Source: Pseudobacteriovorax antillogorgiicola (GTDB taxonomy: Bacteria; Bdellovibrionota_B; Oligoflexia; Oligoflexales; Oligoflexaceae). Taken from it: a stretch of DNA of 64,000 bases. Under the pieces are notes generated by a model. That model ran no database searches and had not been told where the DNA came from. It saw only the letters and a list, made by a program, of their open reading frames with translations. Made by a program: the position numbers and the translations under genes. Shown piece by piece: positions 12,141 through 35,534 of this stretch (positions are counted from its first letter, which is position 1; every line of letters starts with the position of its first letter). Location: positions 186,001-250,000 of the forward strand of contig NZ_FWZT01000004.1 in assembly GCF_900177345.1 (NCBI RefSeq), written 5' to 3'.

Positions 12141-13544
12141 TACCTTTCGATTTTGACTACGGTTTTGATCGATAAGAAGATCAATCGAATGCTCTCCAAT
12201 ACTGAAGACATCTAGGATGAATGTTGGTTTGCCATCGGGAGTGACCCCTTTCCCAGAGAATACTAGCAGAGGTGGGCAAGGCCTTTGGCTAATTGTAACT
12301 AAGGCTTCATTGGTTTTTACTTCAACCAGTAGAGCGAAGTGCTTGAATCCTAGGTTGAATTCAAAAGCACGGTAGTCTTTGCCTTTGAGCGGGAACTTGG
12401 TTTTATATATATCCTTATAGGTTTCTTCGGTAAATCGCGAATTATGATTCAAAACATCATCCAGGAATACTGCAGGTACATTCCTCTCACCTTGTTTGAG
12501 ATAGAAGTGATGGCCAACGGCGATAATATTGTCACTGCAGTCGGCTTCTAAGATGGTGCGCTTGCTGTCCACTTGATTGAGGGGGATTGCAAAAGTCTGA
12601 TTCTGCCAAGTAAAAGTTTCACAGGGAATCTGGGCAATCGTTTCATGGAGTAGCAATTTGAACGAAACTCCACTATCGGGAGAGGTTTGGATCGCAATCT
12701 TGCTATTGAGGCTTTCCAGCCTTGGTTTGATCTGGCTAATAATCTCAGCGAGCGCTTTTTCGTCGGTGCCTGAACCATCATCAGATACAATTAGCTCAAC
12801 TTGATCTTCGTATTGGGCTACGCGAAAGGAAATTTGGCTCTCAGCGGGTTTTGCCAGTTCGCGCCTCTTGTCTTCAGGTTCGATGCTATGATTCACGATA
12901 AACTCGGTAAGCGCATGAACTTCGGGTACAAGCTCCTCTATGATGGTATTTTCTACCAGTACATCACCACCCTGAGTCCAAATTCTAAATCGCTTATTGT
13001 CGCGGCCTTGAAGAACGTCAATTTTTTCTTCAATAAGCTCGAAAACTATCTGAAACGGTATCATCTTGTCACGCTTAAGGAAACGCTGTAGCTGTTTGCT
13101 GATGAGATCGAGATATTCCACATTTGCTTTGGCCTGCAGATTGCTCCAATCGGTAATTCTCTGCTGTTGGAAATTGATGAGACTTAGTTCACCCAGTAGA
13201 AAATGGCTTATGGTTCGTGGATCGAGAGGGTCTGTCTGCTGCTTTGTGTTGGCGATGGCTATTGGGCTATCGAGGGGATCGATGACGTAAAAATCATCGC
13301 TAAAGTGCTTGCGAAGCTCAACGATGTTATGTTTTGTTTTCAATTTACAGCTCAAGACGGGATGATCGAATACTTCACCATCATGAATTTCCTGTTGCCC
13401 CAAATCGATCTCTAATTCGTAGAGTGATCCCAATGATAATAAGGCCCGCATAAGTTTCGTTGGTTGAGTACCTTCGTCTCGCTCGACTTGATTTAGATCG
13501 CAAAAGAAGGAAAAGTTGTACCATTCATCCTTGGAAGTCGTCAT
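12135..13544 (-). CDS. CheA-like protein lacking the phosphotransfer domain, with degenerate kinase
   Basis: About 469 residues, cytoplasmic. The layout recalls the CheA core: a dimerisation-like helical region (about 140-200), an HATPase-like P4 domain (about 210-330) and a CheW-like P5 domain (about 335-460, with CETFTWQNQTFAIPLNQV where CheA couples to receptors). It has no N-terminal Hpt (P1) domain and so no phosphorylatable His. In P4 the N-box that normally reads VRNxxDHGIE is changed to 'FIVNHSIEPEDKR', losing the Mg-ATP asparagine, while the VSDDGSGTD box is kept. Catalysis is therefore doubtful and a scaffolding role more likely. The gene follows a REC-STAS gene by 7 bases. I chose the ATG at 13542-13544 (GAGGAA upstream); an earlier ATG would add 32 residues inside the neighbour. 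Confidence 0.7.
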   Translation of the reverse strand: MTTSKDEWYNFSFFCDLNQVERDEGTQPTKLMRALLSLGSLYELEIDLGQQEIHDGEVFDHPVLSCKLKTKHNIVELRKHFSDDFYVIDPLDSPIAIANTKQQTDPLDPRTISHFLLGELSLINFQQQRITDWSNLQAKANVEYLDLISKQLQRFLKRDKMIPFQIVFELIEEKIDVLQGRDNKRFRIWTQGGDVLVENTIIEELVPEVHALTEFIVNHSIEPEDKRRELAKPAESQISFRVAQYEDQVELIVSDDGSGTDEKALAEIISQIKPRLESLNSKIAIQTSPDSGVSFKLLLHETIAQIPCETFTWQNQTFAIPLNQVDSKRTILEADCSDNIIAVGHHFYLKQGERNVPAVFLDDVLNHNSRFTEETYKDIYKTKFPLKGKDYRAFEFNLGFKHFALLVEVKTNEALVTISQRPCPPLLVFSGKGVTPDGKPTFILDVFSIGEHSIDLLIDQNRSQNRKVA

Positions 13545-13551
13545 AAGTTCC

Positions 13552-14271
13552 TCAAACAGCAGAATTATATGTAATGAGTTGGGATGAAAGTAAGGTATCC
13601 AACTCAGCGCTAATATTGTGCCAATGAAAGCGACGCCCATCTTGCTCTAGGTTGTCAAAAAAAGATTTCAGAAATATGAGGTTTTCTGTACTTACCTCAC
13701 TTACTTCAGAAAAATCAAAGGTCAGTGCTGAAGTGATTGCAGACTGGGCCTTCATTAACTGTAGCCTTACGAGCTGCGCGTTCTTATTCGATAGCAAGGC
13801 CGCCTTGCCAAAAGAGACTTTTAGCCCGAGCTGATGGTCTTCAATTCTAATGAGCTTGCTAGCCTCGTCTAAGTTTGTACGAGAATGGATTTCTTTGCCG
13901 TGCTTCAAAACTCTCGTAATCTTTTCAGATAGCTCTTGGTAGCGAAACGGTTTACTCAGAAAGTCGAAGCAACCCATACGGAATAGGTCGATGATCTGAT
14001 CTTTTTCTCCATAGCCACTGATGACCAGAATGGGAAGTGCGGTGTTGGTCTTTCGAATCTTGCGGACGAATTCTACACCATCCATCTTAGGCATCACCAA
14101 ATCTGACACCAAGCAGTCAGGGGGAGATTCTTGGATCGCCTCCAAGGCCTCTTCAGGGCGATTGAACGTTTTAACGCGAAAGTTCAGGCTTAAAGCATCT
14201 TGGAAAACCTCTAAAGCATCGGTTTCATCGTCCACCACAAAAACCAGGGGTAATTCCTTTGAATCCGACAT
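13552..14271 (-). CDS. Response regulator with C-terminal STAS-like domain
   Basis: About 239 residues. Residues 8-125 are a complete receiver: FVVDDE, acceptor Asp in CLVSDLVMPKMDG, VISGYGE, and Lys in FLSKPFRYQE. After a linker, residues about 145-239 resemble a STAS/anti-sigma-antagonist-like beta-alpha domain (LTFDFSEVSEVSTENLIFLKSFFDNL), the kind often used to bind switch kinases. This C-terminal assignment is moderate. The start at 14269-14271 has AGAGG upstream and fits the receiver N-terminus. The downstream CheA-like gene begins 7 bases after its stop, so the two form an operon and probably a module in which phosphorylation changes a protein-protein contact. Confidence 0.8.
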   Translation of the reverse strand: MSDSKELPLVFVVDDETDALEVFQDALSLNFRVKTFNRPEEALEAIQESPPDCLVSDLVMPKMDGVEFVRKIRKTNTALPILVISGYGEKDQIIDLFRMGCFDFLSKPFRYQELSEKITRVLKHGKEIHSRTNLDEASKLIRIEDHQLGLKVSFGKAALLSNKNAQLVRLQLMKAQSAITSALTFDFSEVSEVSTENLIFLKSFFDNLEQDGRRFHWHNISAELDTLLSSQLITYNSAV

Positions 14272-14398
14272 AAACAAACCTCTAATTAATCTCAATCCAT
14301 TAGGAGTATCGGAGCAGAGTTCGACAACTGTGTTACATTGATGAAAGATTGCGTATAATGGAAAAGGAATGTAATTATTACCAGCACTAAGGGCAGTT

Positions 14399-15898
14399 AT
14401 GGGTCCAACATTAGAACTCAGCCGGTTCCTCGGTTTCATATGCTTGCTTGTAACGTATGTTGGTGGCCCGGCCTTGGCTAAAGACAAGGGAGTTAGGCCC
14501 GTCGTCGGTGTCATAAAAGAGGTGAAGGGTGCTCCAGATGTTTTACGAGACCCTACACCGGCCGTTACCACTGAGCTTAAGCAACGGTCGAAAAATCAGG
14601 GCTTCGCCATTGTCTTGTATAAGAAAAAGTACTGGGAAGCGTTTCCACTGAAGTCAGGATTAAAGATATATTACGGTGACGTCCTAAGCTCCGGTCGGAC
14701 ATCAAAAATGGTCCTTGAGCTAATCGATGGCTTCAAAATTGTTATGGCCAAAGATACTCGCGTTCGGCTCACACCAAGATTTGTAGAAGATCAATCCGGA
14801 AGTGGGAGCACTTGGTTAAATCTCTTGGGTGGTAAGGTTAGGGCATACCTACTAGGGAACCGTAAGGAAACTCGCACCGGGTTTCGTTCACGATCAATGG
14901 TTTTGGGTGTGCGAGGAACAGACTTCGTTTTCTCAGTCAAAGATAAGAAAAGTCAACTCATAACTATAGAAGGTGATGTGGCAGCGCGACCTGTGTCTGA
15001 AAAAGAGGCTGAGACCTTTGAGTCGATTGCGGAGGCCTATGTGGAGAAAAAAGAGAATCAAGACGTTATTAGTCAGAAAATTGAGGAACTTAAAGACACT
15101 CAGGTTGCTGAGCCAGTCAGCGTTAAGAGGGGCCAAAAGGTTGAGGTTCGTGAGCCAGCTGAAGGAGGTGACAGTCCTGATCCAGCTGAGAAAGCACTTG
15201 AGCCCTTCGCGGTGGCCCCTGCTGAGTCACAAGATCTCGAAACTGTTAAAGACATCACAGAGGATATCCAAGAGCTTAAGGCTGATCAAAACGATCAGTC
15301 CCTAGACAAATTAATTGAAGATAGGCGCTTGGACGAGCCAAGCCAGGATTTCCTTGCGCAATTCAAAACCTTTAGTTTCCGAATCGGGTTAGAAAATATT
15401 TCATCAGATGGGGAAGGGTATTTGATCGAAAGCGGAGGAGTCTCCTTGGGTGTTGAATATAGGCCTTTTAAATATGGTTTTGCTTCCCTAAGCTTCACTT
15501 CAGGGGATTATAAGGTCAGCATTAACGACAACAATAATATGGAGTACCTGACAGAAAGTTATGACAAGCTCATGCTTTCTATCGGGGCTCGCTATGTGAT
15601 ATGGGATTCACTTAGTGTTGGCTTAGCACTCAGCTACCTAGGAGGCCATCAATTCATATTCAGAGATCCACAACAGAAAGTGATCCTTGTGGATTTCGAC
15701 TCTACGACCCTTACGCGGCTCCAACTCGCCTATAACTTTTGGCAAGATGCGGAAGTCTTCCTGTCCATGGGGGGAAGCAACCGAGCCGCTCGCTTAGAAA
15801 GCATAGAAAGCCCCCAAGGAGGGGATAGCCAACATGGGAGCCGAAAGGTTGATTTCGAGACCGGCTTTTTCAGGATTGGGTTGGGGTGGGCCTACTAA
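14399..15898 (+). CDS. FecR-domain protein with C-terminal outer-membrane beta-barrel
   Basis: 499 residues. A signal peptide (about 1-27, ending GGPALA) is followed by a FecR-type domain (about 60-200) with 'LKIYYGDVLSSG', LELIDGFKIVMAK and the typical SRSMVLGVRGTDFVF. Next is an acidic, Glu/Asp-rich linker (about 205-320), then some 180 residues of alternating strands (FSFRIGLENIS, GVSLGVEYRPF, MLSIGARYV) ending in GWAY, an outer-membrane barrel signature. FecR domains in exported proteins usually bind surface ligands or pass signals. A fusion to a small barrel would place the domain in the periplasm. It is divergent from the REC-STAS operon. Confidence 0.8.
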   Translation: MGPTLELSRFLGFICLLVTYVGGPALAKDKGVRPVVGVIKEVKGAPDVLRDPTPAVTTELKQRSKNQGFAIVLYKKKYWEAFPLKSGLKIYYGDVLSSGRTSKMVLELIDGFKIVMAKDTRVRLTPRFVEDQSGSGSTWLNLLGGKVRAYLLGNRKETRTGFRSRSMVLGVRGTDFVFSVKDKKSQLITIEGDVAARPVSEKEAETFESIAEAYVEKKENQDVISQKIEELKDTQVAEPVSVKRGQKVEVREPAEGGDSPDPAEKALEPFAVAPAESQDLETVKDITEDIQELKADQNDQSLDKLIEDRRLDEPSQDFLAQFKTFSFRIGLENISSDGEGYLIESGGVSLGVEYRPFKYGFASLSFTSGDYKVSINDNNNMEYLTESYDKLMLSIGARYVIWDSLSVGLALSYLGGHQFIFRDPQQKVILVDFDSTTLTRLQLAYNFWQDAEVFLSMGGSNRAARLESIESPQGGDSQHGSRKVDFETGFFRIGLGWAY

Positions 15899-27705: not shown

Positions 27706-28104
27706 AGGTAAACCTTTTGCTCCAGCCGATCTATGGCTTTGCATCGGCTATTTTCTTACTACAAATAAGGGGATAAACGCCTCTTTCGAATTTGTAATAA
27801 GGATATGTGTAGTCGTTTGCGCTAGTTTTTGGGTGGTAGGCGTAGCCTTTTACTTCGTAGCTGAATTCATTCATCCCGGTATAAATGACAGTCGGAGGAT
27901 TGAGACATGGCTTTCGCTTTTCACGTGTATATCAGTGCCAACAAATCTGGGTTCTTTTACTAGCCAAACGCAAGGGCTGCGTGGTTTGAAGCGGTTAAGA
28001 TTTCTTTCTTGGTCAAAGGTGAGTGAAAAAGCCAATCTTCAATTGAAATTAGCTGGCATAATAAGTGCTTGCAGTTGTTGTGAAGAATCAAAAGGAGGTT
28101 CAGT
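27706..28104 (+). other. Divergent intergenic region with a short interrupted ORF
   Basis: This 399-base gap separates the hybrid kinase (minus) from the trypsin-LRR gene (plus). At 27907-27963 an ATG eight bases after a good GGAGG opens an 18-codon ORF (MAFAFHVYISANKSGFFY). It ends at TAG, and the same frame then continues open for 20 codons to 28026. It may be a leader peptide or a decayed small gene. No promoter or terminator is clear. The trypsin-LRR gene itself has an AAAGGAGG just before its GTG. Confidence 0.3.
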
Positions 28105-30426
28105 GTGAAGTGGCGGATCGCAGCGCTATTACTAATTGTCCAAATGGTGTCATCTTGCTCAAGTGATCAAAATCGAGCAGAACAAATGACGTTGAAAATG
28201 GTTCATGGCTACGACTTACCTCAGGGTCACCCTTTGGTGAATGCTATCGTGGCTCTGGAAGATGCTCAGAGTAAGAAATCGTTCTGCACTGGAACTTTGG
28301 TACATCCCAAACTAGTTGTCACCGCAGCTCATTGCATTTTTAAAAAAACCGTACGGGACTATCAGCTGGCTTTTTACGGAGGAGACTCACCAGAAGTTCG
28401 TCAGGGAGAGGTCCATGAGGCATTCAAAAAGTCTCATAAGTACGATAGCAACTTCGATATCGCTTGGATTCGCCTTGCTGAACCAGCACCAGCCTATACA
28501 AAACCTCTTGAAATATGGAACGACCCCGATGTGATTGAGCCCGGTCAGGGGTTGACGATGGGAGGTTTCGGTCAGAAGAAAACCCACTGTTCTCTAAGCG
28601 ACCCAGATTGCTACGGTGGTGACTTAGCTTTTGTGGATACCATGTTGCAAGAGTATGTCAATCAAGGGCGTATCTTTCATTTGTTGCTTGTGGGACCAAC
28701 GCCGAACGAGGGGCCATGTTTTGGTGATTCGGGAGGGCCTTTAGGTGTCCAGAGGAATGGGCAATGGTATCTTTTAGGAAATTTCATGGGCTGGGATAAA
28801 ATTCTTGTTCAGGAGGATTATAACAGGCTCTGCGAAAATGGTGAGGCAATCTATAATTCTGTTGGGGCCTACGTTCACTGGATTGAGCAAAGCTCTGGTA
28901 TCCAACTAAACTTCGACGGAGATGCCAACCAAAGGCCTGCACCTCCTGTTTATCCAAGCAAGCCAGACTTAGATCAGAGTAGTTTTGTGGAATGGTGTGC
29001 TTATGATGACATTAAGTCACCAAGCTGGTTTACGACGCAAAGTATTATCAGACAAGCGGCGGACTTCGCTCGCAAACAAGATTCTAGTATTGAAGGTCGG
29101 GAGCTTTTCGAAGATTGCTATCTAGCGGAAGCATGGTTGACGATGATGTTTGCCAAAGATCCAACATTGAATTTCTCAATCAGTGAGTTTGGTCGAGGCA
29201 ACTTTGACTATTTCTTAGAAGATCTAAGACCACTTCAATCTCTACAAAAATTTAATATCAAGCGCTTGGTATTAGTCAACCACACCATCGTTGACTTAAG
29301 CCCGATCCTACACTTAACAAGTTTGGAAGAGCTTACCATAATGGACAACCACCCTCGGGTGCAGTTAAAAAAATCTTGGAACATTGAGCCACTGACCCAG
29401 CTTAAAAAGCTGACACTTTTCAACACCGGGTTTCCGCTCGATGCGCAAAGCTTGACGGGCAAGTCGAGCCTGAGTTTTCTAAAGCTTGGCTATATGGAAT
29501 CCCAAGGGTGGACCGAGATATCAGGCCTCAAAATCAAGACGATGATTCTCACTGATGTGAAGGGAGTACGATTGAGTGCACTAGATCCGCAGAGCCTGGA
29601 AGCATTGGAAGTGTCGGGCTCTCAAGATCTTGGGCTTACTGGTTCCTACCCCAAGCTGAAAAGCCTGCGTTTATACGAACCAAAACTCCAGGCGAATTTG
29701 TCATTGGGTCGTTTTCCATCCCTTCAGCAGCTCTATATTCAGGATAGCAACGTAGAAAGCCTTCTAGGCCTGAGCAGTTGCAAGCAATTGGAAGAAGTAT
29801 TTCTCATGAGAAATCGCAAACTCAAGACCATTGACGCCATTACTGACTTAGAATCACTTCGAATCTTGGAAGTCTTAGATGGCAGCCTAGAAGAGGCTCC
29901 GGTGCTTGCTGATCTACCCAAACTGGAGCATATCAGCTTTCGCGGTAATCAGATCGTTGAACTGCCTCCGCTTGAAGGCATGGCAAGTCTCAAAAGTTTA
30001 GACTTAGAAGGTAATCAAGTTGAGAAGTTAACACTGACACAGCCATTGGAATCTTTAACTCACTTCAACATCAGTAATAATCCTATTGGCAGTTTTGAAG
30101 GAGCAAGTTTCTTTCCAAACCTTGAGATGCTGATTGCTAGTAATGAGAAATACAAGAGCCTTACAAATCTAAGTGGCCTTGAAACTCTAGGAGAATTAAA
30201 GGAATTGAATGCCAGCCACAATCAAGTGAGCGATGTGCGCCCTTTAGTTCAGAATCAGAACTTAGGGGTGATTATTCTGAGTCACAATAATGTTGCTGAC
30301 TTTGGGGTCTTGAAGGAGCTTGAGAATGTGGTTTATCTGGAGGGGGTGAAGAACCCTGCTCCTAAGCAGTGCCCTTGGGGTGATAGCAAGGTTTGTCGGT
30401 TTGATTGGTTTCGTTTGAGTATTTAA
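28105..30426 (+). CDS. Trypsin-like serine protease lipoprotein with C-terminal leucine-rich repeats
   Basis: 773 residues. The signal ends in lipobox VSSC (Cys18). An S1 chymotrypsin-fold protease spans about 33-265: FCTGTLVHPKLVVTAAHC with H76, SNFDIAWIRL with D118, and GPCFGDSGGPLG with S209 complete the catalytic triad. The activation site equivalent is around KMVHGYDL rather than IVGG. A linker (about 270-300) and a small Cys-containing segment lead to some 15-18 leucine-rich repeats (about 370-760, e.g. LKSLDLEGNQVEKL), ending with QCPWGDSKVCRF as a cap. S1 proteases usually use pro-peptide or PDZ companions; a C-terminal LRR suggests target capture. The GTG start has AAAGGAGG. Probably anchored to the outer membrane. 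Confidence 0.9.
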   Translation: MKWRIAALLLIVQMVSSCSSDQNRAEQMTLKMVHGYDLPQGHPLVNAIVALEDAQSKKSFCTGTLVHPKLVVTAAHCIFKKTVRDYQLAFYGGDSPEVRQGEVHEAFKKSHKYDSNFDIAWIRLAEPAPAYTKPLEIWNDPDVIEPGQGLTMGGFGQKKTHCSLSDPDCYGGDLAFVDTMLQEYVNQGRIFHLLLVGPTPNEGPCFGDSGGPLGVQRNGQWYLLGNFMGWDKILVQEDYNRLCENGEAIYNSVGAYVHWIEQSSGIQLNFDGDANQRPAPPVYPSKPDLDQSSFVEWCAYDDIKSPSWFTTQSIIRQAADFARKQDSSIEGRELFEDCYLAEAWLTMMFAKDPTLNFSISEFGRGNFDYFLEDLRPLQSLQKFNIKRLVLVNHTIVDLSPILHLTSLEELTIMDNHPRVQLKKSWNIEPLTQLKKLTLFNTGFPLDAQSLTGKSSLSFLKLGYMESQGWTEISGLKIKTMILTDVKGVRLSALDPQSLEALEVSGSQDLGLTGSYPKLKSLRLYEPKLQANLSLGRFPSLQQLYIQDSNVESLLGLSSCKQLEEVFLMRNRKLKTIDAITDLESLRILEVLDGSLEEAPVLADLPKLEHISFRGNQIVELPPLEGMASLKSLDLEGNQVEKLTLTQPLESLTHFNISNNPIGSFEGASFFPNLEMLIASNEKYKSLTNLSGLETLGELKELNASHNQVSDVRPLVQNQNLGVIILSHNNVADFGVLKELENVVYLEGVKNPAPKQCPWGDSKVCRFDWFRLSI

Positions 30427-30701: not shown

Positions 30702-31538
30702 ATGGGACTCGGAAATTTCTTAATTGTAGCTGCAACCCTCGTATCCGCCAAAGAAGCTCTTGCCCAGGAAGTAGTACAGACTAAACACACTGAAAAAACT
30801 TGGGGACTTTCCTTGACAGCTTCATTGAGCGAGACCCCAATTGAGTCCAGCAGCGTTGATCATTATCGACAGTATGGTTTGGCCCTTGTCACCTCTTTTC
30901 GGCCGAGTTTTCCGACAACAAGTTGGCTAAAGGACCCATTGCTAAGCGCGAAGTTTTCCTATGTTGATGAAATTGGCTACGAGGATAATAATTCTAATTT
31001 TCAAAACACGAAGTTGAGCTTCACAGGTGTCGGATTCGATTTCACAGATGACTTAAAGCTAAGTTCCGAATTCTCATCATACCTTGCAACTAATGATGAT
31101 TCGCGGAAATACTATGGCTTTGTTGGATCCATAAAGATAGCTCCTGCGCTTGCATACACGACGGCGATTCCAGGTCTCACCCTATCTGCTGGTTTAGGCG
31201 TATCATACAGCTACTACGAGTTTGAAACTAACAAGGGTGGTGTTTTTAACCCCGAGTCGCTCTATGAAGTGAGTTTTGGAATAGGGTACGAGATAGAGCC
31301 CGTTACTTTTAATATTGGTGGCTCAAATTCCACTGTTTTCTTGGCTGACGGCAGCAAGAAGGACGATATCTATAGTGGTCATGCTTCGATTACGTATTCA
31401 CAAACCGATCAACTTTCATACGGGCTAAGCCTTAGCAAAGAAGATCGAACTTATGGCTATGATGGCCTAACCCCAAACCTTAACTTTACTTACGCGGACC
31501 AGAGTCTTGTCACTGCGTCTGTAACGTATTCGCTGTAA
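30702..31538 (+). CDS. Outer-membrane beta-barrel protein
   Basis: 278 residues with a signal peptide (about 1-21, ending EALAQ). The mature chain is made of alternating aromatic/hydrophobic strands, e.g. WGLSLTASLSE, 'YGLALVTSF', LSAGLGVSYSYYEF and 'SYGLSLSKEDRTYGY', with about 10-12 strands and final residues VTASVTYSL, close to the C-terminal barrel signature. It is likely a small porin or assembly partner. A ribosome site (AAAGGAAG) precedes the ATG. The zinc metalloprotease gene starts 39 bases after its stop, so both are likely one operon. No specific family was recognised. Confidence 0.8.
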   Translation: MGLGNFLIVAATLVSAKEALAQEVVQTKHTEKTWGLSLTASLSETPIESSSVDHYRQYGLALVTSFRPSFPTTSWLKDPLLSAKFSYVDEIGYEDNNSNFQNTKLSFTGVGFDFTDDLKLSSEFSSYLATNDDSRKYYGFVGSIKIAPALAYTTAIPGLTLSAGLGVSYSYYEFETNKGGVFNPESLYEVSFGIGYEIEPVTFNIGGSNSTVFLADGSKKDDIYSGHASITYSQTDQLSYGLSLSKEDRTYGYDGLTPNLNFTYADQSLVTASVTYSL

Positions 31539-31577
31539 CGGTAATTTATGGAACGAAAGTCGCAAAGGAGTTTTTAC

Positions 31578-34500
31578 ATGACGAAACAGTTCAACAACCC
31601 ACTCAAAAAGGTATTGCTGGTGATGCTTGCCATCGCAGTAGTTCCTTCATGTCAGAAGAAAAGGTCTCCTGACTTCGTTCAGGGCGATGGAGAAAACCTA
31701 TACTCCATCTCAGATTACCAGGGTAAGAGTTTTACGATTACCACGGGGGCGAATAGGTTCAAGGGTCAAACATCAAAAGCAGATGTTATCGAGATTATCG
31801 ATGGCTTTGATGGAATCAATAGCCTCGATGCCGTTGAGTTTTCTGTGAGCGAGGGACTTTTCGCTAATATTGACCTTAGTGACTATTATTTCTATGGAAA
31901 AGAAAACGCAGATTATACGCTTAGCTACTCCATGACAGATAGCCATGTGATCCTCTCAAAGGTAGCAGCGAAAGAGGATATTCCTTCTCAGGAGCTTACC
32001 TACGCTACTAAACTAGCAAACGGTAGTTACTCTGTACCAATGATGGGCCTCCCTGTATCTCTTTATACAGTTGAAAAAGTTAAGGACTCTCGTGGCAAAA
32101 GTACTCAGCAGAACGCTACTTTTTCTAAAGACTATCTCTCAGAGTCAACGCACTTCAAGGTCAGCAAAGATAGTATCAAATATTTCGATGCTCCCAAGAA
32201 GTTGGATTTGCTTCCTGCGTCATTTTTTACTGGTGATGATGAGTGGGTTTATACAAAGACACTTGTTGGTCGTGCAATCAACAGCAAGTCGATTCTAGGT
32301 GATACACCTTCTGCACTAAAGATAAAATTTGCTCGTACTAAGAACAGTATCCTCGGTGTGGATCTAAATATCGCGAAAGAGCAAGAAGTGCTCGACCCGA
32401 CTAAGACTATTGTAGCTCTTGAGATTCCTGTTAAGTGGGTCGACTTTGCTCTTACAAAGTCTGGTTCAAACGCCCAACTCGAAGAAACTATGCTCGATGA
32501 TGATGAGTCAGGTGCCCGCTTCTGGGAGGAAAGAGCTTACGGCCTAGTCGACTTCAACAATGCTGATCGTCTTGGGCAAAGCTTAACGCAAGACAACAAG
32601 CTTGAAAAACTTGAGATTGGCAATGACTATTTCTCTTTTACTATCTATGAATCTACCACTGGAAACACATATAAGTACTCGCTTAAGAAAGACAATCGTA
32701 AGCTGGATGGGCAAAGAATCTTTGCAGCAGACAAGCGAATGTTTCATATTTTCTACAACAGGCGAAATGTGATCAATGGTAACCTTTATCAGCAAGATGC
32801 CGATTTTGAAAAGCTAGACTTTGCAAACCGGATCTATCCTGAAGATGGTGAAATCGTCTTTAATATTACCAAAAATACTCCAAATGACCCGATCTACTTG
32901 GAAGCTATTCAAGCTTCAGTTGACGCTTGGGACAAGGCTTTTACAGAAGCAGGAACCGGAATCAGGGTTCGCCTTGACGATAAACGGGTGGACCTTGGTG
33001 ATGTTCGCTACAACCAAATTTCATTCTACGGCTACGAAATTGACTCTTCCATGAATGGTGGTGGGATGCTTCTTGGTTTCGGGCCGTCGGTTCAGGACAC
33101 TAGAAATGGTGTCACCTTTTCAGCTTCTACTCATATCTATCTTCGCGCTTATCGCGAGGGAATCATTAGGAGTGTTAGAAGCTTTGTTCGAAACGAACTT
33201 GGGCTATATGATGACAAAGCAGTAAAGGGAATTCAACTAATCGATCTCGCTGATGGTATCCTGGAGGGGGGAGCGTTAATTAATAGCAAGATTGGGTTTG
33301 CAGAGTCAAAAGAATCCCTGTTTGATGTGAACGATGAAGACCTGTTTGCGCCAATTGCGAAAGCTAAAGTTAAACCTAAAGATTCAACAGAATTGCAAGC
33401 TGCTATTCCAGCGTTCGCTAGAACCTCATTTTCAGACTCTGGTTGTGGCTTTGCAGCAGTTGCTTCAAGCTCCAACAACTGGAAGAAAATTAGGAACGAG
33501 TGCTTAAAGGGAAATTCGAGTTTAGATTCTTACCTTAAAAAGTTGAAAGAAGCGCATTCGAACAATTCTGAAGTTTTGAACCTAGAAGGTGAGGAAGAGG
33601 CGATACTCTCCTGTGCTCAAAACTTGATGAAGGATACCTTAATTTCAACATTGATTCATGAAATCGGCCACAACTTAGGGCTTGGTCACAACTTTGCTGC
33701 AAGTAGCGATGAGCCTAACTTTGCCAAGAAAGAGGACAAGAAAACTTACGCATACCCTTCTTCTTCCGTAATGGATTACCCTGACAGAGACTTCGACCTA
33801 TTCTCTAAAGCAGGCCCGTATGATGTGGCCGCTATCAAGTACCTATATGGTAGAAAAGTAGATCTTAAGGATGGCACTACCGTTGAGATCCCAGCCAACA
33901 CTAGTGTCGCGGATGCTGCAGCTCAAGCAGGTAGCTCAAAAGATGAGTTGAAAAAATACCGGATGTGTACTGACTCTGAGAATAATGGCAACGATCCGTT
34001 CTTCGATCCTTTGTGTCGAAAATGGGATGTTGGATCTAAGCCTCAAGAGTACGTTACGTGGGCTGTTAGCCAGATACATGCTGGAATCATCCAAAATGGT
34101 TACGTGTACAATAACAAGGTTTTTAGTGGCAGAGTTGGTGTGGATACCTACTTCCTAGCGTTCAGGCAAATTTACGAGTACTGGAGATACTTGATCTACA
34201 ACTACCCAGGTGTTGGCCGGTATTTAGAAGGCGATAAGGGTACGTTAGAAGAGCTGCAGAAAATTGTTGATGCGGAAGCAGCAAATGGAAACGTTGAATA
34301 TAAGAACTATTTTGAGGCGTCAAAATTGATTTTTAACTTTTTGACAGATGTCCTCTTTCAGCCATTGAAAGTTTGCCAAGTATACAACGAGGAAGATCGA
34401 GCCAGCATTGTGGAGTTCAGAAAGTTTCGATCGAATCTGTTTGCGACCCGCGGTGTTACAGTTCAAAATTGTAAAGAGGCGGAGAAATACTTGGTCGAAG

Positions 34501-35534
34501 ATTATTCAGAGTTGCTAGGCGAAAACTTAGGTGTAATCGAGTATGGGCAAAGCGTTCAAAGCCTTGAGCTTGATCTCGACCCCGATGTTCTCGCTGAGAA
34601 GCTTAAGGAAGTTTATACGTATGCAGACTACTTCTCTGCTTTGAATCCTGTCTATTCTTATGGGTTTGAAGAGATTAAAAATTTGGCAATGGTTACGCTT
34701 TTCCGAAAGTCGCCAAACTTACAGCCAAACTTTAATAGAGGCTTCTACCCTTCTATGATGGACAGCCGAGAGTACAGCCAATTGATAAGAGAGAAGCTAC
34801 TTGATCGAGTGATTAATGGACTAGATGGGAAGACTGTGGGGTTAACTGGCGGTCACCTTCCATTCTTTAAAGAAGAGCAGGGAGTATACTTGACTGCACT
34901 TTCAACATTTATCAATCGGGCTGACAGGGCGAATTCGGCAAGTCGTCCGATTCGTAGAAGTTTTACTGCGACGGTGAAGCTGAATGAAAAGGCATCAGGG
35001 TATGCTGGAGATTCTGGTACGCTATATAGGCTAGATTCAAACGGAATGCTGAATATTGCGACAGAGTCTAGAAACCCTGACCTATACAAAATGATGAAAC
35101 GGCTTAATCTCCTTGATCAGCTGTTTAAGGGTGACATTGAGACCGTAGACATAGTTATGGAGAAGATTGAGAAAAACTCGGGTGACCTTAGAGTAGACTT
35201 TAATAGAAAGCGTCTGGAAGACTTTATGAGCCAGTTGCTTCGAGAAGCTGTAGATACTTTTGCGGAGGAGGAAATTTATTTCACGCCTGAGCAATATAAT
35301 GCGCTTCTTACTATGCTAGATATGGGTGACGATTTTGATAGGACTGAAGAAGGTGCCTTCGATGAGGTTATCGCTAATCTAAAGAACAAGCTTGTAGAGT
35401 TCACGGAAAATCGTTTCGAAATCAGTAAGTTAGATATCTTAACGAAAGATGAATTGAATAGCTTTATGAGTGTTCTGGGCAGCTCGGATCTTTCTGCACA
35501 ATATGGCCTTCTTTACAACTTGGTCGAACCTTAA
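31578..35534 (+). CDS. Large zinc metalloprotease lipoprotein (metzincin-like)
   Basis: 1318 residues. Lipoprotein signal with AIAVVPSC (Cys about 24). The catalytic site begins at H694: LIHEIGHNLGLGHN, i.e. HExxHxxxxxH with E695 as base. A Met-turn-like SSVMDYPDRD follows about 40 residues later, as in metzincins and in the exported zinc proteases I know as DUF5117/DUF4953. The 650 residues before it hold a beta-rich region and a segment 'AIQASVDAWDKAFTEAG' that commonly precedes the catalytic domain in that group. The 550 residues after it are mostly helical and unassigned. I used the ATG at 31578 because AAAGGAG lies just upstream; the ATG at 31548 adds ten residues before the signal. It probably digests extracellular or prey protein. 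Confidence 0.9.
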   Translation: MTKQFNNPLKKVLLVMLAIAVVPSCQKKRSPDFVQGDGENLYSISDYQGKSFTITTGANRFKGQTSKADVIEIIDGFDGINSLDAVEFSVSEGLFANIDLSDYYFYGKENADYTLSYSMTDSHVILSKVAAKEDIPSQELTYATKLANGSYSVPMMGLPVSLYTVEKVKDSRGKSTQQNATFSKDYLSESTHFKVSKDSIKYFDAPKKLDLLPASFFTGDDEWVYTKTLVGRAINSKSILGDTPSALKIKFARTKNSILGVDLNIAKEQEVLDPTKTIVALEIPVKWVDFALTKSGSNAQLEETMLDDDESGARFWEERAYGLVDFNNADRLGQSLTQDNKLEKLEIGNDYFSFTIYESTTGNTYKYSLKKDNRKLDGQRIFAADKRMFHIFYNRRNVINGNLYQQDADFEKLDFANRIYPEDGEIVFNITKNTPNDPIYLEAIQASVDAWDKAFTEAGTGIRVRLDDKRVDLGDVRYNQISFYGYEIDSSMNGGGMLLGFGPSVQDTRNGVTFSASTHIYLRAYREGIIRSVRSFVRNELGLYDDKAVKGIQLIDLADGILEGGALINSKIGFAESKESLFDVNDEDLFAPIAKAKVKPKDSTELQAAIPAFARTSFSDSGCGFAAVASSSNNWKKIRNECLKGNSSLDSYLKKLKEAHSNNSEVLNLEGEEEAILSCAQNLMKDTLISTLIHEIGHNLGLGHNFAASSDEPNFAKKEDKKTYAYPSSSVMDYPDRDFDLFSKAGPYDVAAIKYLYGRKVDLKDGTTVEIPANTSVADAAAQAGSSKDELKKYRMCTDSENNGNDPFFDPLCRKWDVGSKPQEYVTWAVSQIHAGIIQNGYVYNNKVFSGRVGVDTYFLAFRQIYEYWRYLIYNYPGVGRYLEGDKGTLEELQKIVDAEAANGNVEYKNYFEASKLIFNFLTDVLFQPLKVCQVYNEEDRASIVEFRKFRSNLFATRGVTVQNCKEAEKYLVEDYSELLGENLGVIEYGQSVQSLELDLDPDVLAEKLKEVYTYADYFSALNPVYSYGFEEIKNLAMVTLFRKSPNLQPNFNRGFYPSMMDSREYSQLIREKLLDRVINGLDGKTVGLTGGHLPFFKEEQGVYLTALSTFINRADRANSASRPIRRSFTATVKLNEKASGYAGDSGTLYRLDSNGMLNIATESRNPDLYKMMKRLNLLDQLFKGDIETVDIVMEKIEKNSGDLRVDFNRKRLEDFMSQLLREAVDTFAEEEIYFTPEQYNALLTMLDMGDDFDRTEEGAFDEVIANLKNKLVEFTENRFEISKLDILTKDELNSFMSVLGSSDLSAQYGLLYNLVEP

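Follow-up and report, generated by a model that had tools for sequence, protein, structure and literature searches.

A predicted lipid-anchored S1 protease zymogen with an internalin-like leucine-rich repeat arm in a bacterium related to Oligoflexus

Introduction

One gene in the 64,000-nucleotide stretch of DNA analysed here (the window), from a bacterium related to Oligoflexus, appears to join a trypsin-like S1 protease to a long run of leucine-rich repeats (LRRs) within a single lipoprotein. This raises the question of whether the product is a surface-tethered, target-guided protease, as a preliminary description of the locus had supposed, or whether its lipid anchor, protease and repeats work together in some other manner.

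Results

Layout of the gene and its product

All of the features claimed in the preliminary description were found in place, far above chance; together with those added here they are as follows (all on the + strand).

28094..28098, +, Shine-Dalgarno-like GGAGG, 6 nt 5′ of the GTG start (sequence)
28105..30426, +, S1-LRR lipoprotein gene, 773 aa, GTG start, stop included (open frame, Pfam)
28105..28155, +, predicted signal peptide, residues 1–17 (sequence; match to the PS51257 pattern)
28156..28158, +, predicted lipid-attachment cysteine C18 (invariant in the five-protein alignment)
28156..28197, +, putative 14-residue anchored propeptide C18–K31, lacking a second cysteine (from the inferred activation bond K31-M32)
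28198..28908, +, S1 protease domain, residues 32–268 (Pfam Trypsin; fold match to chymotrypsin-numbered 16–245)
28330..28332, +, catalytic His76 (alignments)
28456..28458, +, catalytic Asp118 (alignments)
28711..28713, +, Gly203, at the place of trypsin Asp189 (counted back from the catalytic Ser)
28729..28731, +, catalytic Ser209 (alignments)
28909..29220, +, linker and helical LRR N-cap, residues 269–372 (alignment, fold model)
29221..30339, +, leucine-rich repeats of internalin type, residues 373–745 (Pfam, solved-structure relatives, fold model)
30340..30423, +, LRR C-terminal cap with C756 and C764 (alignment)

Pfam analysis of the 773-aa product returned Trypsin at residues 49–225 (E 2.4e-17) and LRR_4 over four stretches (E 5.7e-26), with no domains beyond these two types. 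Coding on the antisense strand of 28105–30426 was ruled out, the reverse frame being riddled with stops, and a promoter/terminator scan at the gene gave nothing decisive. The fold was predicted from 32 aligned rows (mean pLDDT 87.6, pTM 0.83), with block pLDDT values of 76–97 for the S1 double β-barrel over residues 41–270; this model supersedes an earlier one made from 5 rows, in which much of the second S1 barrel lay below pLDDT 50 and the listed search rows were LRR-type chains. A Foldseek search with the 32-row model has both S1 proteases and internalin A among its matches, and the long LRR arm that had been described behind the protease is borne out by Pfam LRR_4 and by the predicted fold.

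The protease domain

Structural alignment of the model places residues 32 to ~268 on many S1 chains at Z scores of about 24–25, and the best solved-structure relatives of the domain are thrombin/chymotrypsin (about 1.6e-10). The His-Asp-Ser order and the TAAHC and GDSGG motifs of S1A serine peptidases are all present. H76, D118 and S209, whose loss in orthologues the preliminary description had named as grounds for abandoning its reading, do not vary among five full-length proteins or across 32 aligned S1 rows; the triad is complete, as had been claimed, and catalytic activity is predicted. The trypsin-type specificity implied by the earlier name fares differently, since Asp at position 189, the mark of the trypsin pocket, occurs in 0/22 rows of the S1-LRR survey, with Gly203 taking its place in the window protein. 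'Trypsin' therefore names a fold here and not a specificity, and the bond cleaved is probably not one that follows Lys or Arg.

Predicted lipid anchor, propeptide and activation bond

C18 sits in the sequence MVSSC and fits the PROSITE bacterial lipoprotein pattern PS51257. The strict pattern matches 16 of the 22 rows; the six that fail it include the close relatives L009, L010 and L011, and have a cysteine at about the right place. Signal peptide and cysteine together support the earlier assignment as an exported lipoprotein, at the level of prediction from sequence.

In structural alignments of the predicted model, M32 falls repeatedly on residue 16 in chains with chymotrypsin numbering (1dlk_B, for instance, at Z 24.7 over 215 residues, rmsd 2.6), and on this ground the activation bond would be K31-M32. 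D208, the counterpart of chymotrypsin Asp194, the partner of the new N-terminus in known S1 enzymes, is kept in the aligned rows. The putative bond lies 14 residues from the lipid cysteine, C18 itself counted, and wherever measured the distance from anchor to cut is 9–14 residues, with L023 and L026 corrected for a wrongly assigned motif, and there is no extra cysteine in between. Because K31-M32 stands between C18 and the protease, normal activation would free the enzyme together with its LRR arm, and because the propeptide has no second cysteine, there should be no disulfide to retain it. The earlier expectation that the active enzyme stays tethered is thus not borne out, the inferred activation bond separating anchor from protease. 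Lys or Arg precedes the putative cut in 13 of 22 rows, among them L023 and L026, which were read by eye; in the other nine the preceding residue is non-basic or the motif unrecognised, so that a single activating enzyme cannot be assumed.

These observations bear on the original idea of a permanently tethered, target-guided protease that needs no N-terminal cleavage for activity and acts at the cell surface. The invariance of C18 in the five proteins would suit such an enzyme, as would the nine rows without a basic residue or recognisable motif at the activation bond, but the alignment of M32 with residue 16 and the retention of D208 are marks of maturation by cleavage, and a 14-residue spacer would allow little reach; we regard permanent tethering as unlikely.

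The LRR arm

The repeats are of the internalin type according to Pfam, solved-structure relatives and the fold model alike. Their best solved-structure relative is internalin A (2.7e-33), and in the predicted model residues 446–767 match internalin F (Z 26.8, 298 residues, rmsd 3.5), whilst residues 407–772 match the Leptospira LRR protein LIC11098 (Z 28.1, 349 residues, rmsd 3.5). The NCBIfam internalin models were not reached at their cut-offs, the score being 64.2 bits against 1600 for InlA.

Comparison of the five full-length proteins reveals that the S1 domain (mean pairwise identity 0.47) is better conserved than either half of the LRRs in 10/10 pairs. Over eight repeats (residues 562–745), pairwise identity is 0.24 at exposed concave positions, 0.30 at other non-core positions and 0.61 in the core. 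The LRR caps and their cysteines are conserved, with C298 and C338 of the N-cap region invariant and likely paired, and the length of the LRR part varies widely, in frames of 507 aa to > 800 aa. Three longer S1-LRR proteins (L013, L020 and L021) have two LRR blocks split by a second cap-like segment.

Fast divergence of the repeats and a variable concave face fit diversified recognition and reveal no target; in the five sequences compared, the same concave variability would equally be expected without any conserved ligand, or from generally weak constraint on the LRRs. The arm may guide the protease to its targets. Alternatively, it could be a module for structure or self-regulation that covers the active site or brings two copies together, with no targeting role. 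The conserved caps and cysteines would be in keeping with such a module, as would the unconserved concave positions, at which no common ligand is visible; a widely varying length and the fastest divergence in the protein would, however, be odd for a part that has to fit its own protease, and we give this alternative a low probability.

Relatives, distribution and history of the fusion

Matches to the whole protein or part of it were found at E 1e-15 or better in 11 of the 56 genomes searched, the window's own included, and four genomes of the same family (G002, G003, G005 and G006) hold full-length relatives at 31–40% identity. A profile of 13 S1-LRR proteins, with the match required to run in one frame from the S1 start past model position 450, located S1-plus-LRR frames at 19 places (counted from the result table) in 8/58 genomes of the phylum, at an E limit of 1e-30 that misses weaker members. 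Of these eight, six are from the same family (seven of whose genomes were searched) and two from other families of the order; the same-family genome G001 yielded no S1-plus-LRR frame in this search. Four frames with both domains are present in the window's own genome, among 30 S1 and 26 LRR_4 frames. Scanning named genomes yielded four loci, in assemblies titled as Oligoflexaceae (two), Proteobacteria and Oligoflexus MAGs, with full-length relatives at 31–39% identity among such assemblies; the scan used close-relative patterns and says little on S1-LRR fusions elsewhere. Among plasmids 26 records matched, with 0 covering 80% of the query, and each of the matches listed is confined to either the LRR side or the S1 side.

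Pfam analysis of L026 and of nine of the 20 members that carry the S1-LRR label in the tree described below found Trypsin in 10/10 and LRR_4 over its cut-off in 6/10; LRR matches were weaker in L106, L027 and L029 and absent in L026. Across genera the relatives keep domain order, caps and full length, and across families they keep the order. The S1-LRR lipoprotein is real, conserved and not a one-off, and its relatives keep both the S1 and the LRR parts.

An ordinary nutritional exoprotease, with the LRRs merely sticky bulk lacking a specific target, would be consistent with the general degradative habit suggested by a genome with about 30 S1 frames and numerous LRR ones. The conservation of order, caps and length across genera, and of order across families, argues against this explanation, which we consider quite improbable.

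In a tree of 47 S1 domains the window gene groups, with support, with four other S1-LRR proteins (100/99), and the other three S1-LRR genes of the genome form a supported group of their own (95/96). Five label changes are needed on this tree, at least two of them forced by starred branches. A single origin of the fusion, with 20 rows held together, was not rejected (p-AU 0.29, for a set that left out L106, labelled S1-LRR, and added L028).

Genomic setting

Genes for ThrS, a rhodanese and a hybrid kinase lie upstream of the S1-LRR gene. About 275 bp downstream, a 278-aa protein without a Pfam match (window 30702–31538) precedes a 1328-aa metzincin-like protein (31548–35534, +) with a HELGHNLGLGHN-type metalloprotease motif and a match to PF16313 met-zincin (E 1.4e-14). 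An operon or partner reading was ruled out, these neighbours being absent beside the relatives L032–L035; as the neighbours differ from those of relatives, the S1-LRR gene stands alone by the comparison made. Relatives L032–L034 have a common neighbourhood of their own. A plain S1 gene, a possible activator, lies divergently upstream of the S1-LRR gene at L032:3910-4794 and L033:2327-3154.

The other three S1-LRR genes of the genome are near LRR proteins of ~590–650 aa with a common N-terminal domain (L066:5849-11464, L067:4771-8557 and 12656-14449, L068:12639-14552; contigs C10, C26 and C3), and plain S1 genes are also nearby on 2/3 contigs. One S1-like frame there (L068:5527-6681, −) adjoins intact S1 genes and has the His motif without GDSGG; it is likely an inactive copy. 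The ~380-aa N-terminal domain of the LRR proteins has no Pfam or PDB match, is present in 30/58 genomes of the phylum at E 1e-8, and in 12 short loci carrying it an S1 motif frame adjoins only one, from this genome. A putative MACPF-like motif prompted the idea that these neighbouring proteins are pore-formers, which gained no support from a PDB profile search, from Pfam or from PF01823 (this genome, E up to 10).

Discussion

Proposed mechanism

Our preferred reading, held tentatively at a little under even confidence, is of an exported S1 zymogen that is lipid-anchored through its own propeptide and targeted by a C-terminal internalin-like LRR arm, so that activation and release are one event. 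It builds on the two folds, the position of M32 at residue 16, the retained triad and D208, the short propeptide, the stronger conservation of S1 than of the LRRs, and the paralogues. After Sec export the protein would be lipidated at C18, probably on the outer membrane, and K31-M32 would be cut by another protease or by another copy. The new amino end at M32 would fold in and pair with D208, forming the active site, and the same cut would free protease and LRR arm together. The arm would then bind the enzyme to a specific protein or surface, concentrating cleavage there, and different paralogues would address different targets.

A wider and more doubtful proposal is that Oligoflexaceae-type bacteria possess addressable proteases, in which one kind of S1 enzyme is carried on many LRR arms as lipid-anchored zymogens released by their activation cut. 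Since some paralogues adjoin LRR proteins with a second domain, LRR arms may even be an addressing system common to several effectors.

If the zymogen reading is true, a little-studied bacterial lineage would have a natural protease whose recognition arm is modular and changes fast. By descent the protein joins two well-known domains, and the surprise is therefore moderate; the release mechanism is testable and slightly unexpected.

Comparison with known systems

The preliminary description knew of no characterised bacterial protein with this domain order, and no family with it was found among Pfam, NCBIfam or PADLOC names or in the literature searched. The titles and abstract openings covered, with subscription journals mostly outside coverage, hold no description of a bacterial S1-LRR protein, and the architecture is not described in the available portions of PMC10781872 and PMC8195603. 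As far as these searches reach, the architecture is undescribed, both component domains being familiar.

Bacterial conflict systems (Avs1b; death-domain systems, PMC8195603) include trypsin-like domains within larger proteins, where they are linked to signalling adaptor or NTPase modules; the S1-LRR protein, in contrast, is predicted to be exported, and its only Pfam domains are Trypsin and LRRs. A defence-system reading was rejected, PADLOC matches being weak and confined to the S1 domain: Avs1b and LmuA match over model positions 15–90/1924 and 18–168/425 and not as whole proteins, and the NCBIfam score for Avs1b is 15.7 bits against a cut-off of 1500.

With the S1A chymotrypsin/trypsin enzymes (MEROPS S1A; chymotrypsin 1dlk, enteropeptidase light chain 3w94) the protein shares the triad, the TAAHC and GDSGG motifs, the fold and the predicted position of the new N-terminus, whereas it lacks Asp189, is fused to LRRs and is a predicted bacterial lipoprotein. 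The Listeria internalins (InlA, InlF) and the Leptospira proteins LIC11098 and LIC12759 have the same LRR type and solenoid fold but, unlike the S1-LRR protein, no protease domain. Internalins also have additional domains and are anchored differently.

Animal type II transmembrane serine proteases (TMPRSS, matriptase, enteropeptidase) rank high among the structural matches to the S1 domain. They are membrane-anchored zymogens in which a disulfide keeps the active chain on its stem; the S1-LRR propeptide, by contrast, has no spare cysteine, and the animal enzymes have no LRR arm. The likeness is one of working, not of descent, and if our reading is true the protein would be a bacterial working counterpart of these anchored zymogens, with activation and release in one step.
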